Virus record (IMG/VR): IMGVR_UViG_3300025128_000151
Span: 1-35,929 of that record
DNA: 35,929 nt
Reading direction: 5' to 3' (one strand)
Source: a virus
A program made the position numbers and the translations under genes. Of this stretch, positions 1 to 7,099 are shown in pieces (position 1 is the stretch's first letter; each line of letters begins with the position of its first letter). A model generated the notes under the pieces. The model saw only the letters and a program-made list of their open reading frames with translations. It ran no database searches and was not told where the DNA came from.

Positions 1-23
1 GCGTAAAATTTCGTGCGGCGCCG

Positions 24-52
24 ATTCTACCACATTTTGGGCAAAATGTCAA
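24..52 (-). promoter_or_regulatory. Leftward sigma-70-like promoter at the window edge
   Basis: Read on the minus strand there is a TTGACA -35 box (TGTCAA at 47-52 on the plus strand), a 17-bp spacer and a TAGAAT -10 box (24-29). The -35 is preceded by AAAAAGTTC, the extension seen at the other promoters of the window. It points out of the left edge, so its genes are not visible. Confidence 0.75.
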
Positions 53-148
53 GAACTTTTTAAGTTTCTGCTTTTTTAAGCCAAATAGCGAGTCTTACTG
101 GGATAATTACACAAATTTGGGCATAATTGGAAAAAGTTCTTGACATTT
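44..148. repeat. 18-bp perfect inverted repeat containing two -35 regions
   Basis: Positions 44-61 and 131-148 are exact reverse complements (AAAAAGTTCTTGACATTT on the plus strand in the right arm). The left arm is the -35 region of the leftward promoter. The right arm carries a perfect TTGACA at 140-145, but the sequence 17 bp downstream is GC-rich and has no -10 box, so it is an orphan -35 element. Two ATAATT motifs lie between the arms (near 104 and 123) without matching -35 boxes. Confidence 0.7.
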
Positions 149-208
149 CGAGGCCGCGTCCGGCCCGCGAGAGTTCATTTGCGTTCCTGACCAGGCGAAA
201 AATAGTTC

Positions 209-237
209 TTGACTTTTACCTTAACTTCGCGGATAAT
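209..237 (+). promoter_or_regulatory. Rightward promoter for the first gene cluster
   Basis: TTGACT (209-214), 17-bp spacer, GATAAT (232-237), preceded by AAAAATAGTTC. The first start codon (265) lies 28 nt past the -10 box, predicting a leader of about 20 nt that contains the ribosome site GGAAGGGA. Confidence 0.85.
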
Positions 238-264
238 AGTCTCATAGTTTGAAAAGGAAGGGAA

Positions 265-498
265 ATGACGAATAATCAGTTCAATCTACTAATGATGCAC
301 GGCGGAATGATGCGGGACGGACTGAGTTCTGAGGCAGCCCTCAGCATGTTAATTTTCATGCAGGAGCCATCGGGAGATATAATATGGCTAAAAGAATATC
401 TAAAGGCAAGCGCAGAAGCAGAAGGCCCAACGCCCACGGACGCCGCCTTTCAAAAGCTTCGGGAGAGACTGAAGCATATCAAAAGCGCAACCCCGTAG
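265..498 (+). CDS. Small hypothetical protein (77 aa)
   Basis: I do not recognise this protein. It starts at an ATG with a good ribosome site (AAGGAAGGGA, about 5 nt upstream) at the expected distance from the promoter at 209-237. The N-terminal half is methionine-rich and moderately hydrophobic (MMHGGMMRDGL, then AALSMLIFM) and the C-terminal half is a charged helix (KLRERLKHIK). There is no signal peptide or clear membrane segment. The last 115 nt overlap the next gene in another frame, and both frames have their own initiation signals. First gene of the promoter-proximal cluster. Confidence 0.6.
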   Translation: MTNNQFNLLMMHGGMMRDGLSSEAALSMLIFMQEPSGDIIWLKEYLKASAEAEGPTPTDAAFQKLRERLKHIKSATP

Positions 499-590
499 CA
501 AAATTCGGGAGAAAGTTTAACAAAGGTGGGGTTCATAGGGACCGTACCAAGTATTGGAGGAAGAAGAGATGGCAAAAGGACGACGAGTAG
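384..590 (+). CDS. Small very basic protein (68 aa), overlapping its neighbours
   Basis: The protein is rich in Lys and Arg throughout and has a central NPVAKFGRKFNKGGVHRDR segment; I have an impression of similar small basic phage proteins, but cannot assign a family. Such composition suggests RNA or DNA binding, which is inference. The ATG follows GGGAGATATAAT, a usable ribosome site, and lies inside the upstream gene in a different frame. The end overlaps the next gene by 22 nt. There is no membrane segment and no cysteine. Confidence 0.6.
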   Translation: MAKRISKGKRRSRRPNAHGRRLSKASGETEAYQKRNPVAKFGRKFNKGGVHRDRTKYWRKKRWQKDDE

Positions 591-787
591 TAAACAAGCA
601 AAAGCAGCCCCAGCGTGTTAGAATGCTGAATGGCGAAGTGGTAACCCCTGTTCGCTGCTACTCTAATGTAGTGGGACAGCGTTGGAACCTCATGGGTGGA
701 CAAGTTGGTCGTGATGGCGAGTCTATTAAAGGCTCTGACGGTCGGCCTGTGCCCTTTCAATCAATCGGCGAGTTGGTCTGGAAGTAA
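569..787 (+). CDS. Small hypothetical protein (72 aa)
   Basis: Not recognised. The open frame extends upstream to 554, but ATG 569 has a strong ribosome site (TTGGAGGAAGAAG) and gives a protein starting MAKGRR. The N terminus is basic (RRVVNKQKQPQRVR); the rest is rich in Gly and Val and looks like a small beta-fold (GQRWNLMGGQVGRDG, then PVPFQSIGELVWK). It overlaps the basic gene by 22 nt and ends 10 nt before the next -35 box, so it closes the first cluster. Confidence 0.6.
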   Translation: MAKGRRVVNKQKQPQRVRMLNGEVVTPVRCYSNVVGQRWNLMGGQVGRDGESIKGSDGRPVPFQSIGELVWK

Positions 788-797
788 AAAATAAATC

Positions 798-826
798 TTG
801 ACAACTTGGTTAAAATACGAGATAAT
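798..826 (+). promoter_or_regulatory. Promoter for the first HTH paralogue and structured RNA block
   Basis: TTGACA (798-803), 17-bp spacer, GATAAT (821-826), preceded by AAAAAATAAATC, a variant of the common extension. The predicted +1 is near 833. No terminator is apparent before 2071, so the same transcript probably runs through the HTH gene and the whole structured region. Confidence 0.85.
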
Positions 827-881
827 AGTTGTCATGAAATTGAGAGATAAAGTTAAAAAATTATTGTTTGGGAGAACAAGT

Positions 882-1196
882 ATGGCAGAAGTTCAAAAAA
901 ATTACACTGACGAGATGGTAGTATCCATGGTCGATCAGTATACCGCAACCCCGACTCGCGCTACTGTAGATGCGCTGGCAATGGAGTTTGGTAAGTCGGC
1001 ACGCAGCGTCATCGCAAAACTTTCACGCGAAGGTGTTTATGTAGCCCAAAAGCCAACGACTAAGTCTGGCGCTCCAATTGTGAAGAAGTCAGAATTGGTT
1101 GAGCAGATCGAAGGGCATCTTGGTATTAGTGTACCGTCTCTTGCAAAAGCGACGAAAACTGATCTTGATAGCTTGGTACAATCGCTCACCAACTAA
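882..1196 (+). CDS. Small HTH DNA-binding protein, paralogue family copy 1
   Basis: A 104-aa protein. Residues about 8-55 form a predicted HTH unit (YTDEMVVSMVDQYTATPTRATVDALAMEF, then GKSARSVIAKLSREGVYV). The same framework with a different sequence recurs at 3543-3848, 15002-15355 and four times in 17913-18638. A second region (about 63-104: KSELVEQIEGHLGISVPSLAKATKTDLDSLVQSL) matches the C terminus of the 3543 protein. ATG 882 has the ribosome site GGGAGAAC; an in-frame ATG at 834 would add 16 basic residues but lies almost at the predicted +1. A role in regulating phage transcription or packing DNA is inference. Confidence 0.75.
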   Translation: MAEVQKNYTDEMVVSMVDQYTATPTRATVDALAMEFGKSARSVIAKLSREGVYVAQKPTTKSGAPIVKKSELVEQIEGHLGISVPSLAKATKTDLDSLVQSLTN

Positions 1197-1210
1197 AAGG
1201 GTGCAACCCA

Positions 1211-1377
1211 GGCCTCCGGGGAGATAGGAGGCCTTCAGGCTTCACTGGAAGTCATATTGTTGAAGATGCGACGCTAGGTGCGAAACACCTGTTAGATGCT
1301 ACGCATGTATCCGAGAGGATGTGACGTAGCTAGCGCTGATACAGTATGCGAAGGTTCAATCCCTTCGGAGGCCACCA
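1211..1377 (+). ncRNA. tRNA-like domain with encoded CCA and oversized variable region
   Basis: The ends form a perfect 7-bp acceptor stem (1211-1217 with 1367-1373) followed by A and CCA (1374-1377). The T arm is canonical: GAAGG, loop TTCAATC, CCTTC (1350-1366). A D-arm-like GGAG/CTTC (1220-1223 with 1233-1236) has GG in its loop. The anticodon position is abnormal: GGCTT/AAGTC with a 6-nt loop CACTGG, which can also close to a tetraloop. Then 96 nt are inserted before the T arm, with their own helices CATATTG/CAGTATG (1253-1259 with 1342-1348), CGCTAG/CTAGCG and two inner hairpins. It is not an ordinary tRNA, and it lacks the G3-U70 pair of tmRNA. Confidence 0.55.
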
Positions 1378-1433
1378 GATAAGGCTACCTACGTAGTAGC
1401 GACCCTTACCCTCCCGGGGCATAGTAGGGAGGG

Positions 1434-1497
1434 CATTTGAAAGTATGTTTGGACGAAAATTGGTATTGATTCCTATGGACAAGCATACTTTCAAATG
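1434..1497 (+). other. Long perfect hairpin (14-bp stem)
   Basis: CATTTGAAAGTATG at 1434-1447 is exactly complementary to 1484-1497, enclosing a 36-nt loop. An upstream helix CCCTCCC/GGGAGGG (about 1409-1433) ends next to it. This is one arm of the proposed large RNA. Confidence 0.7.
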
Positions 1498-1602
1498 TGG
1501 GGAAGCCAGGGACTGTTCCGTGCTAGACACGGGTGCAAATGAAACAGATAAGGCAGTAAAGATTTCGGTGAAAGTACAATGCCCTGCCGAAGCCTCGCAT
1601 TT

Positions 1603-1752
1603 GTCTGATAGTGCAAATACTATCCGTGAGATTTACGGCCCACGCGTCACAAGGGCTAACCGACCCCTACCAGTAAGCTAGGTGCGATGAAAAAGGGGGT
1701 GCAGGAATCAGTAACCTGCAATATGGTCTGATAGTGCCTACACTATCCGTGA
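1603..1752 (+). repeat. Two copies of a 27-nt hairpin with identical arms and different loops
   Basis: GTCTGATAGTG and ACTATCCGTGA flank a 5-nt centre at 1603-1629 (caaat) and again at 1726-1752 (cctac). All 22 arm positions match, while the loops differ except for the first base. GATAGT/ACTATC forms the stem. In each copy the shared CCGTGA leads into a second pairing element with a GCCC/GGGC helix. Duplication of a structural module with only the loop diverging argues for RNA function. Confidence 0.7.
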
Positions 1753-2020
1753 AAGATGCCCGATACACGTTAACTGACTGGGCGCACTTAAAGTAAAAAA
1801 GGAGAAGTCCTTAGGCGAGAGAGATGGAATTTTGGAAGTGGTCCTTTCAACAGGCTCTTTCTTTAAGGCAGGTTATATGTTGTGAAAATCACGATTTCCC
1901 TTGAACTTAGATTCTACGCCATTGTGTCGTAGTCTACTGAGGAATAAAAAATCGTATTAACGAAGGGCGGTTGTTGTAAACAATGCTACCCTAACCAGGG
2001 AGCGGCGTGGGACAACCATT

Positions 2021-2068
2021 CAGTAAAAAGGCGGAGGGTTTTACTGCAAACTATATAGTTTGGTAAAA
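2021..2068 (+). promoter_or_regulatory. Mutually exclusive hairpins ahead of the terminator
   Basis: CAGTAAAA (2021-2028) pairs perfectly with TTTTACTG (2039-2046). The same TTTTAC can instead pair with GTAAAA (2063-2068), stacking on the self-complementary CAAACTATATAGTTTG (2047-2062). Only one pairing can form at a time. The geometry resembles an attenuator switch, but no ligand or leader peptide is evident. Confidence 0.45.
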
Positions 2069-2070
2069 AG

Positions 2071-2107
2071 AACTTCCTCGATCTTCGGGTCGGGGGAGTT
2101 TCTTCTC
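2071..2107 (+). terminator. UUCG-capped terminator-like hairpin
   Basis: A 13-bp stem (2071-2083 with 2088-2100, several G-U pairs) is capped by TTCG and followed by TTTCTTCT, a moderate U tract. It closes the structured RNA block 20 nt before the next start codon, so it may also be a processing or stability element. Confidence 0.65.
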
Positions 2108-2120
2108 GAAAGGAGTATAA

Positions 2121-2300
2121 ATGCGAGAGTATGAAGTCGAAATTCTAGAATCCTATGAGCGTGTCAGGCGCATTACGGTAAAAGCTGGTAATGAGAAACT
2201 TCTAACGGAAAGGTTAGAGGACATGATCGAGGCGCGACGACGCAGAATTGGAATGGATGAAGCCGACGTAGTAGTACTTGAGCTAACACTCATTGAATGA
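2121..2300 (+). CDS. Small hypothetical protein (59 aa)
   Basis: ATG 2121 follows the strong ribosome site CGAAAGGAGTATAA and gives a 59-residue protein that is not recognised. It is strongly charged, with an N-terminal beta-like stretch (YEVEILESYERVRRITVKAG) and a helical, arginine-rich middle (LTERLEDMIEARRRR). Such a layout often occurs in small phage inhibitors or modulators, but no function can be assigned. It stands alone between the upstream RNA terminator and its own terminator at 2328. Confidence 0.65.
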   Translation: MREYEVEILESYERVRRITVKAGNEKLLTERLEDMIEARRRRIGMDEADVVVLELTLIE

Positions 2301-2327
2301 GGAGGTGACAAATATTTAATTAAGGAA

Positions 2328-2351
2328 GGGTTGCTTAGGCAGCCCTTTTTT
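2328..2351 (+). terminator. Rho-independent terminator
   Basis: GGGTTGC (2328-2334), loop TTAG, GCAGCCC (2339-2345), then six T. One G-U pair in a 7-bp stem. It lies 27 nt after the 59-aa gene and 6 nt before the next -35 box, insulating the following promoter. Confidence 0.85.
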
Positions 2352-2356
2352 ATTTC

Positions 2357-2386
2357 TTGACAAAGTACCTCAAATATTGTTATAAT
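2357..2386 (+). promoter_or_regulatory. Promoter for the 2431-4127 small-gene cluster
   Basis: TTGACA (2357-2362), 18-bp spacer, TATAAT (2381-2386), preceded by TTATTTC, a weaker version of the common extension. The first start codon is 45 nt past the -10 box. Confidence 0.85.
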
Positions 2387-2430
2387 ACTCATCAGAAAAA
2401 TAATCTACAATTTTTATAAGGAAAATTTTT

Positions 2431-2823
2431 ATGGCTGGTAAGGTAATTGACTTTAGTGAAGCCCGAGAACGGCTCACTAACAGACCTTCGGACACTGATT
2501 TCTCTGTGGAGAAAGAAATGGAGTGGGCCAACGCAGAACTCGATGCGGCAGACCTAGAGTTGGATAAAATCACTGAGGAGTTAGATAATTTGACTCAGTA
2601 TATGATCGAACTAACTAGTTATCTTAGTGGTATTTCTGTAGCCCAAACAATCAAAGACGACGGCTACGACGAGTTTATCGCAACTATTGAGGCACAAAGA
2701 AAACACAGAGAGTACGAAGAAAGCGGTGAAGCTCCAATACAACTAGAGCTTGAGATGGGAGAAGGTGAAGAAGCACTTCTAGTAGATTTTACACCTGACT
2801 TTGAGATTGACGATGATAGTTAA
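2431..2823 (+). CDS. Acidic hypothetical protein (130 aa)
   Basis: Not recognised. The protein is strongly acidic with a predicted long helix or coiled coil in residues about 28-70 (MEWANAELDAADLELDKITEELDNLTQYMIELTSYL) and an acidic tail (LELEMGEGEEALLVDFTPDFEIDDDS). ATG 2431 has the ribosome site ATAAGGAAAA. It is the first gene behind the promoter at 2357-2386, with the next start just past its stop. Acidic phage proteins of this kind can mimic DNA or bind host proteins, but nothing here demonstrates that. Confidence 0.7.
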   Translation: MAGKVIDFSEARERLTNRPSDTDFSVEKEMEWANAELDAADLELDKITEELDNLTQYMIELTSYLSGISVAQTIKDDGYDEFIATIEAQRKHREYEESGEAPIQLELEMGEGEEALLVDFTPDFEIDDDS

Positions 2824-2830
2824 AGGCAGT

Positions 2831-3109
2831 ATGAGTTATACAGCCAGCGGAAGAAAGAAAAAACCAATCAAGACTAGAAAAAGGAAAGAGCATGACCGAC
2901 GTAATCTTAGTAGTTCTGGGGATAGTAGTTACCGTGGGGATTCTATTGGGAGTCACAGCACTAACACTGCATTTAACGGGCAAAAGTTATCCCCGGAATG
3001 GGAAGCAGAACGACGAGCTATAAGTAGTAATTATACTATAGCCCCTGCATATAACAAAGGGGCTTATCAAGTTATCGGCAAAAACGAAGTGGAGGATATT
3101 GGGAAATGA
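2831..3109 (+). CDS. Small basic hypothetical protein (92 aa)
   Basis: Reading from ATG 2831 (AAAGG 4 nt upstream) gives a protein starting MSYTASGRKKKPIKTRKRK. The N terminus is very basic, the middle is Ser/Gly-rich and the C terminus is less biased (GAYQVIGKNEVEDIGK). The Ser-rich middle coincides with an out-of-frame hydrophobic ORF at 2892-3023, so its odd composition may be imposed by that overlap. The stop overlaps the next ATG as ATGA, consistent with translational coupling. Function unknown. Confidence 0.55.
   Translation: MSYTASGRKKKPIKTRKRKEHDRRNLSSSGDSSYRGDSIGSHSTNTAFNGQKLSPEWEAERRAISSNYTIAPAYNKGAYQVIGKNEVEDIGK
2892..3023 (+). CDS. Single-span membrane mini-protein (43 aa) nested in another gene
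   Basis: ATG 2892 has the ribosome site AAAAAGGAAAGAG. The frame encodes a textbook transmembrane helix from residue 4 to about 28 (VILVVLGIVVTVGILLGVTALTL) and a short polar tail. It lies wholly inside the 2831-3109 gene in another frame. A clean hydrophobic helix with a good ribosome site is unlikely to be chance, but codon statistics would be needed to decide between one or two real genes. No function can be assigned. Confidence 0.5.
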   Translation: MTDVILVVLGIVVTVGILLGVTALTLHLTGKSYPRNGKQNDEL

Positions 3110-6689: not shown

Positions 6690-6930
6690 TCTCTTTTAAG
6701 TTTTCCATAAATTTTGATAATCTGTTAGCAACACCTAGTTGGTTGTCTACCAGTACCTCTGTGAACTTCATGACCCATGCCATGTCGTAACAAAACTGTT
6801 GATCAGAAACATCTAGATCTAGGTGTTCCTGTGCGTATTCTACAAATTGAAGAGCTAGCATATCAGCAAACTCCTTTGATCTTTTTTGACGTGTGTAATA
6901 TTCGCCCGTAAACTCTAATACTTTACCCAT
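6673..6930 (-). CDS. Hypothetical protein (85 aa) in the bS21 operon
   Basis: From ATG 6930 on the minus strand: a helical protein starting MGKVLEFTGEYYTRQKRSKEFADMLALQFVEYAQEHLDLDVSDQQFCYDMAWVMKFTEVLVDNQLG. The central FCYDMAWVMKF is striking but not assignable by eye. The frame extends to GTG 6969, but that start would lie inside the HTH gene, whereas ATG 6930 falls 7 nt after the HTH stop. Second gene of the leftward operon. Confidence 0.65.
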   Translation of the reverse strand: MGKVLEFTGEYYTRQKRSKEFADMLALQFVEYAQEHLDLDVSDQQFCYDMAWVMKFTEVLVDNQLGVANRLSKFMENLKESESGS

Positions 6931-6937
6931 AATATTC

Positions 6938-7099
6938 TCATTTTGGTGGCCTAGAAAATCTCCAGCCACGCTTCCTCAAGTACTGAACTTGTAGTCTTAT
7001 TGCATTAGGACTGCGCTTTAGATGTTCTGCGCACTGTTCGACTGTTAACAAATAATAGTTCTCCCTAAGCCAAACCCTTTCTCTATCTGTCCAACGCAT
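6938..7099 (-). CDS. Small Myb/SANT-like HTH protein (53 aa)
   Basis: From ATG 7099 on the minus strand: RWTDRERVWLRENYYLLTVEQCAEHLKRSPNAIRLQVQYLRKRGWRFSR. This has the W-spaced first helix and the RS-NAIR--V--L recognition-helix pattern of small Myb-like/HTH proteins of phages, with strong positive charge. It is promoter-proximal in the leftward operon, 29 nt from the -10 box, so it may regulate the divergent promoters or the operon; that is inference. No good ribosome site is seen. Confidence 0.7.
   Translation of the reverse strand: MRWTDRERVWLRENYYLLTVEQCAEHLKRSPNAIRLQVQYLRKRGWRFSRPPK

Follow-up and report, generated by a model that had tools for sequence, protein, structure and literature searches.

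The DNA analysed here, called the window below, is a 35.9-kb virus record from an uncultured T5-like phage. It carries T5-like replication genes (a two-piece NAD ligase, a DnaB-like helicase, a polymerase, SbcCD, a D5-like regulator and RNR), and its polymerase is about 42% identical to those of T5-like phages of enteric bacteria, Aeromonas and Vibrio. On the plus strand, where all features of the locus lie, one transcription unit is opened by a promoter, TTGACA-17-GATAAT (798-826; an 11/12 consensus match only), and ended by an intrinsic terminator (2321-2352), right after which a perfect promoter is found at 2357. Between them lie P0001 (834-1196), the gene for a 120-aa D5-like DNA-binding protein (PHROG 323/1725, E ~2e-4), about 0.9 kb devoid of a conserved ORF, and a 59-aa gene (2121-2300) downstream of the RNA. 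Three syntenic relatives of the window, L003, L006 and L007, keep this 59-aa gene and encode P0001 homologues with 62-74% identity, upstream of which a similar promoter arrangement can be read; no P0001 homologues were found in cultured phages. Directly after the P0001 homologue, all relatives have an RNA slot, which in the window contains a tRNA-like element (1211-1377) starting 14 nt 3′ of the P0001 stop codon. On the plus strand, a consensus scan of the window gave no promoter match from 870 to 2350; within the noncoding stretch, the sole promoter-like match is a minus-strand one.

A previous sequence-only reading had described this element as a textbook tRNA in its acceptor, encoded CCA and T arm, with a 6-nt anticodon loop and a 96-nt insertion, and these parts were read directly at the positions claimed. 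The 5′ strand, GGCCTCC (1211-1217), is common to a leader hairpin, the tRNA-like acceptor and a rod-shaped fold. A possible D arm, GGAG-ATAGGAGGC-CTTC (1220-1236), recognised by reading the sequence and in the ARAGORN drawing, overlaps the loop and the 3′ stem strand of the leader and is not conserved. It is followed by the anticodon-position hairpin GGCTT-CACTGG-AAGTC (1238-1253), which is retained in the minimum free energy (MFE) fold, and by the structured insertion (1254-1349), predicted by folding to form a long imperfect hairpin. The 3′ part (1350-1377) comprises the T arm GAAGG-TTCAATC-CCTTC (1350-1366), the acceptor 3′ strand GGAGGCC (1367-1373) and ACCA (1374-1377). GGAGGCC occurs twice, at 1227-1233 and 1367-1373, and that GGCCTCC has two identical partners is, as had been stated, a fact of the sequence. 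The 167-nt element folds far better than its shuffles (z -5.8, 0/200).

At default settings, neither ARAGORN nor Rfam (RF00005) finds a tRNA at 1211-1377, and the reading as a tRNA gene was rejected at these thresholds. A tmRNA, standard or permuted, was likewise rejected, with no Rfam or ARAGORN match there and low-threshold chance calls only. When introns were allowed and the cut-off was lowered, ARAGORN ranked 1211-1377 as the best tRNA of the whole window (95.3; next 89.0). Shuffled sequences also reach this score (4/200 for the local 1.4 kb and 1/15 for the whole window), and the program requires a 79-nt intron to invent an anticodon, GAC; the low-cut-off ranking alone is not decisive. 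A strict rule for the 3′ half demanded a 5-bp T stem with a TTCRANY loop, pairing of the next 7 nt with a 7-mer no more than 250 nt upstream, and then NCCA. Applied to both strands of a redundant 2.47-Mb set of related virus DNA, the rule matched tRNA genes, one permuted tmRNA and the window element. Further, the 18-nt core of the T arm is present in eight cultured-phage records, every copy being inside an annotated tRNA gene. Because of the specificity of the strict rule and the confinement of this core to annotated tRNA genes, the T arm, the 7-bp acceptor and ACCA are beyond chance, and the tRNA-like character of the 3′ half of the element is genuine. The case for a complete cloverleaf is weaker, because the anticodon loop has 6 nt and this fold falls short of the MFE rod by about 10 kcal/mol. 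The element thus has the 7-bp acceptor, the T arm with TTCRANY and the CCA of a tRNA, and its loop, CACTGG, does not provide the 7 nt, the U33 and the readable anticodon.

The 5′ strand of the element also belongs to a leader motif, GCRACCC followed by a stem that closes a GGGG..TA loop. Two copies are present in the window and one each in L003, L006 and L007, where the leader lies immediately 3′ of the P0001 homologue. Copy A (1203-1234) is composed of GCAACCC, the stem AGGCCTCC/GGAGGCCT and the loop GGGGAGATA, and copy B (1399-1433) of GCGACCC, the stem CCCTCCC/GGGAGGG and the loop GGGGCATAGTA. All five leaders have a completely paired stem, and 7/8 of its pairs change in a compensatory way among them. 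The check proposed at the outset, namely which GGAGGCC covaries, singled out the local copy; the conserved, covarying partner of GGCCTCC is the one in the local hairpin (1211-1217 with 1227-1233). The T arm, the distal GGAGGCC and CCA were not found in L003, L006 and L007 and were seen in the window only. The two-partner reading is therefore upheld by conservation for the local copy, whereas the distal copy is private to the window. Because the bases of ACCC and GGGG are invariant across the five copies, a possible H-type pseudoknot between the upstream ACCC and the loop GGGG is something we can only infer.

Nearest-neighbour folding of 1211-1377, with an energy model that excludes tRNA tertiary contacts, gave -73.7 kcal/mol for the rod, -67.2 for the local hairpin and -63.9 for the cloverleaf. 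The long rod is thus favoured over hairpin and cloverleaf, and there are three states by energy, not two. The suggested bistable 5′ strand is sound as a statement about sequence. In a transcript covering 1197-1395, folding predicts that the first 160 nt form the leader hairpin and that the rod arises only once the 3′ copy has been made. The rod pairs GGGG of the leader loop with CCCTT, so that the loop could serve as a toehold for refolding. A switch between the folds is, in these models, physically plausible.

A frame of 167 nt turned out to be too small, as the element is the first module of a structured noncoding region of about 900 nt (~1197-2100). The second part of this region is orthologous to an RNA of about 1 kb in L006 and L007. 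Its start is marked by leader B, as blastn aligns window 1395-1505 at 74% with the initial ~108 nt of the L006 RNA, and leader A and the tRNA-like body (about 1197-1394) are an addition in the window relative to its relatives. The RNAalifold energy is below that of column-shuffled alignments for L006 and L007 (z -7.7) and when the window is included (z -10.0), and the doubly changed pairs exceed every shuffle in both alignments (25 versus at most 14 and 30 versus at most 26, respectively). Compensatory (double) changes affect 41 pairs of the conserved structure. After leader B comes a hairpin with 18-nt arms and the conserved loop CG..AAATTGGTA..ATTCCTATG (1434-1497), which is also the second hairpin in L003, L006 and L007. 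Further downstream are the first copy of a 27-nt repeat (1603-1629; hairpin GATAGT-GCAAAT-ACTATC, then CGTGA), which aligns to TAGTAGTACAATAACTACTCGTGA in L006/L007, a hairpin conserved in the alignment with relatives, TGCAGGAATCAGTAACCTGCA (1700-1720), and the second copy of the 27-nt hairpin unit (1726-1752). Both 27-nt units end in CCGTGA, and a similar unit exists in L006/L007. Towards the 3′ end, the stem of the hairpin CAGTAAAA-AGGCGGAGGG-TTTTACTG (2021-2046) covaries (CAGTGAG/CTTGCTG in L006, CAGTAGG/CCTACTG in L007 and GTGTAAG/CTTACAC in L003), and a terminal hairpin, ACTTCCTCGATCTTCGGGTCGGGGGAGT (2072-2099), is located 5′ of the ribosome-binding site of the next gene.

No ORF in the RNA region is common to the window, L006 and L007, and a coding region was rejected: for the ORF at 1445-1681, neither a counterpart in L006/L007 nor a Pfam match was found. 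Rfam searches of window 1-3000 and L007, at gathering or relaxed thresholds, gave no match, and at the DNA level cultured phages yielded chance matches only and no homologues. It is a large structured phage RNA outside any Rfam family. A self-cleaving ribozyme was also considered for the leader, and no match to known consensus sequences was recognised. In L003, a 75-aa ORF at 6717-6944 with a ribosome-binding site breaks up the RNA region, which suggests that the RNA is split or rearranged there. Only short stretches of the L003 region (the leader, the ATTGGTA hairpin and the 3′ hairpin) are recognisable, by visual inspection or by motif, and blastn does not recover them. The similarity of L003 GAGGCCACCA (6521) to window 1368-1377 (E 0.36), with no T arm before the L003 copy, was taken as chance. 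Hairpins with the loop CG..AAATTGGTA(NN)ATTCCT(A/G)TG and differing outer stems are present in ~20 distinct virus contigs (among L077-L121), frequently immediately ahead of a terminator or close to tRNAs or permuted tmRNA, and have no Rfam match.

P0001 homologues were also used as bait. In many of the marine T5-like phage contigs retrieved with them, the slot is occupied by a compact tRNA-like element consisting of the D-arm-like AAGTGNCTACGGAAGCAY, a 3-bp hairpin, a T arm and an acceptor-like stem. The T loop is TTCRACT or TTCRAGT, the D-loop-like sequence is invariant, the acceptor-like stem has up to 11 pairs and there is no CCA. Covariation is well above that of shuffled alignments (78 cells with double changes versus 29.5), as is its score (0.562 versus 0.227; slid alignments reach no more than 0.214). 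A core scan of IMG/VR, independent of P0001, recovered 35 matching stretches. Twenty of the 21 distinct compact copies lie 45-172 nt after the stop codon of a P0001-family gene, including all six distinct member-like ones found by the DNA scan only (L131, L138, L139, L143, L155 and L156); the sole exception, L134, scores at chance level. Examples are L012, L018, L023, L025, L027 (387-463), L028, L031, L039 and L043, and further contigs with the element include L050, L053, L058, L062, L131, L139 and L143. None of the loci tested has an Rfam or ARAGORN match, and the compact elements seem to be a new RNA family. Matches to the core in cellular genome contigs (14-23 bits versus 76-90 for true copies) were dismissed as chance, and the A3 protein search of genome contigs found no cellular protein homologues. 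The window element was considered as a member and rejected, since the covariance model of the family, R1, scores only fragments of it (best 6.3 bits, the T arm 1350-1366). It shares with the compact family the slot after the P0001 homologue and is its positional and architectural counterpart, not a sequence member. A weak R1 match is also seen at window 1788-1873 (13.6 bits).

Other RNAs are found in the same position. In L060 and L070 the slot is filled by a permuted tmRNA; phage-encoded genes of this type (RF04321) were located at L060:4294-4625, L070:4284-4667, L081:4659-4836, L095:9165-9433 and L096:2682-2857, and the tags called by ARAGORN are ANDDIYETALAA in L060 and ANDDVYSLAA in L070. 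More distant relatives have structured elements in the slot that are not tRNA-like (L004:7420-7590, L072 from 4303 and L074 from 4916), and the stretch common to L072 and L074 ends in ATAAGATGGA(C/T)TAA followed by GC-rich, terminator-like sequence.

Several known systems offer points of comparison. The defining property of GOLLD and ROOL is the formation of an RNA-only multimeric cage. They are very long, ornate phage or prophage RNAs, often near tRNAs, and the GOLLD linker sometimes contains phage tRNAs (PMC12286853). The window RNA is also phage-encoded, very long and elaborately folded; unlike them, it follows a D5-like gene, has its tRNA-like part at the 5′ end and matches no GOLLD or ROOL covariance model of Rfam. 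With tRNA genes that carry an intron or a long variable arm, the element shares the 7-bp acceptor, the T arm and the encoded CCA; it differs in its 6-nt anticodon loop and 96-nt structured insert, in a 5′ strand that is part of a conserved leader hairpin, and in falling below the default ARAGORN and Rfam cut-offs. In eukaryotes, RNase P cuts the long noncoding RNA MALAT1 at a tRNA-like element, mascRNA, thereby making its 3′ end. Here too a tRNA-like element adjoins a long noncoding RNA, but it lies 5′ of it and cleavage is only proposed. Permuted tmRNA is a recognised form (RF04321; PMC11915505). It has a tRNA-like domain with CCA, as the element does, whereas in the latter the parts follow the normal order, and a resume codon, a tag and an Rfam match are all lacking. 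In the part of the literature that was covered, nothing was found on a large RNA or a tRNA-like element in this position.

The best explanation, for which we consider the case evenly balanced, is that 1211-1377 may be a tRNA-like processing module which incorporates a conserved leader hairpin and heads a long structured RNA. The sequence itself shows that the 3′ half is tRNA-like, that the leader is duplicated, that the second part of the RNA has orthologues in L006/L007 and that an internal promoter match is lacking. For this last reason, the RNA would most likely be excised from the P0001 transcript. During transcription the leader hairpin would fold first; as the T arm and GGAGGCC-CCA emerge, part of the molecules would rearrange, and host tRNA enzymes would then act on them, with cleavage by RNase P at 1210/1211 and processing of the 3′ end at 1377. 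The products would be the P0001 message, a tRNA-like piece and the large RNA beginning with leader B. In broader terms, the role of the module would be tRNA-like processing or protection, a function that we infer. The promoterless position within one unit, together with the tRNA-like RNAs in the slot of relatives, favours a tRNA-related role. Against the processing module stand the 6-nt anticodon loop, a cloverleaf that is the least stable of the three folds, the lack of sequence membership in the compact family and the lack of the T arm and CCA in the two nearest relatives, where the tRNA-like part is therefore not needed for the large RNA.

A close alternative is that the element mimics the tRNA elbow, either in place of processing or in addition to it. 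In the pure form of this reading, which we consider unlikely, the element would be a mimic or decoy whose elbow is recognised, with no cleavage, by a tRNA-binding protein of the host or by a defence factor that targets tRNAs, and the compact family would do the same job. The compact relatives keep the invariant D-loop-like sequence and the T loop with no CCA and an overlong, 11-pair acceptor-like stem, so that it is the elbow and not a charged tRNA that seems to be kept; the window element, however, has only slot and architecture in common with them and, having no anticodon, would not be a decoy for anticodon nucleases. It is likewise improbable that the tRNA-like 3′ half is a functionless remnant of a captured tRNA, a recombination footprint or former attachment site, with only the leader and the large RNA mattering. 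The T arm and CCA are private to the window, the leader copies flank the tRNA-like part as if by duplication, and the core of the T arm is identical to the one in real phage tRNAs. Random capture, however, would not give an acceptor 3′ strand that exactly complements the leader 5′ strand at tRNA spacing, with complementarity extending into the rod, and no integrase is among the families matched by the window ORFs searched. Very unlikely is a long rod hairpin that only happens to resemble a tRNA and serves, say, as an RNase III site or to protect the 5′ end: it is the MFE fold (-73.7 versus -63.9 kcal/mol for the cloverleaf), with pairing that reaches GGCCTCCGGGG with CCCTTCGGAGGCC, but a rod needs neither TTCRANY nor CCA, a combination otherwise found only in tRNA and tmRNA genes.

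To our knowledge, large structured RNAs are rare in phages and lack an explanation, as does the fact that the known classes lie near tRNAs or carry them. A separate candidate with a tRNA-like first module, in a slot that repeatedly draws tRNA-like RNAs, makes this association testable and raises the question of whether long phage RNAs are cut, capped or hidden by means of a tRNA shape. The presence of other tRNA-like RNAs in the slot of many marine relatives points to a recurring use of tRNA shapes by T5-like phages. More tentatively, and with rather low confidence, T5-like phages may keep a slot behind a D5-like gene for tRNA-shaped RNAs, in which one lineage would have a new class of ornate RNA of about 1 kb with a switchable leader/tRNA-like head, the protein and the RNA being paired to act against or upon the tRNA machinery of the host.
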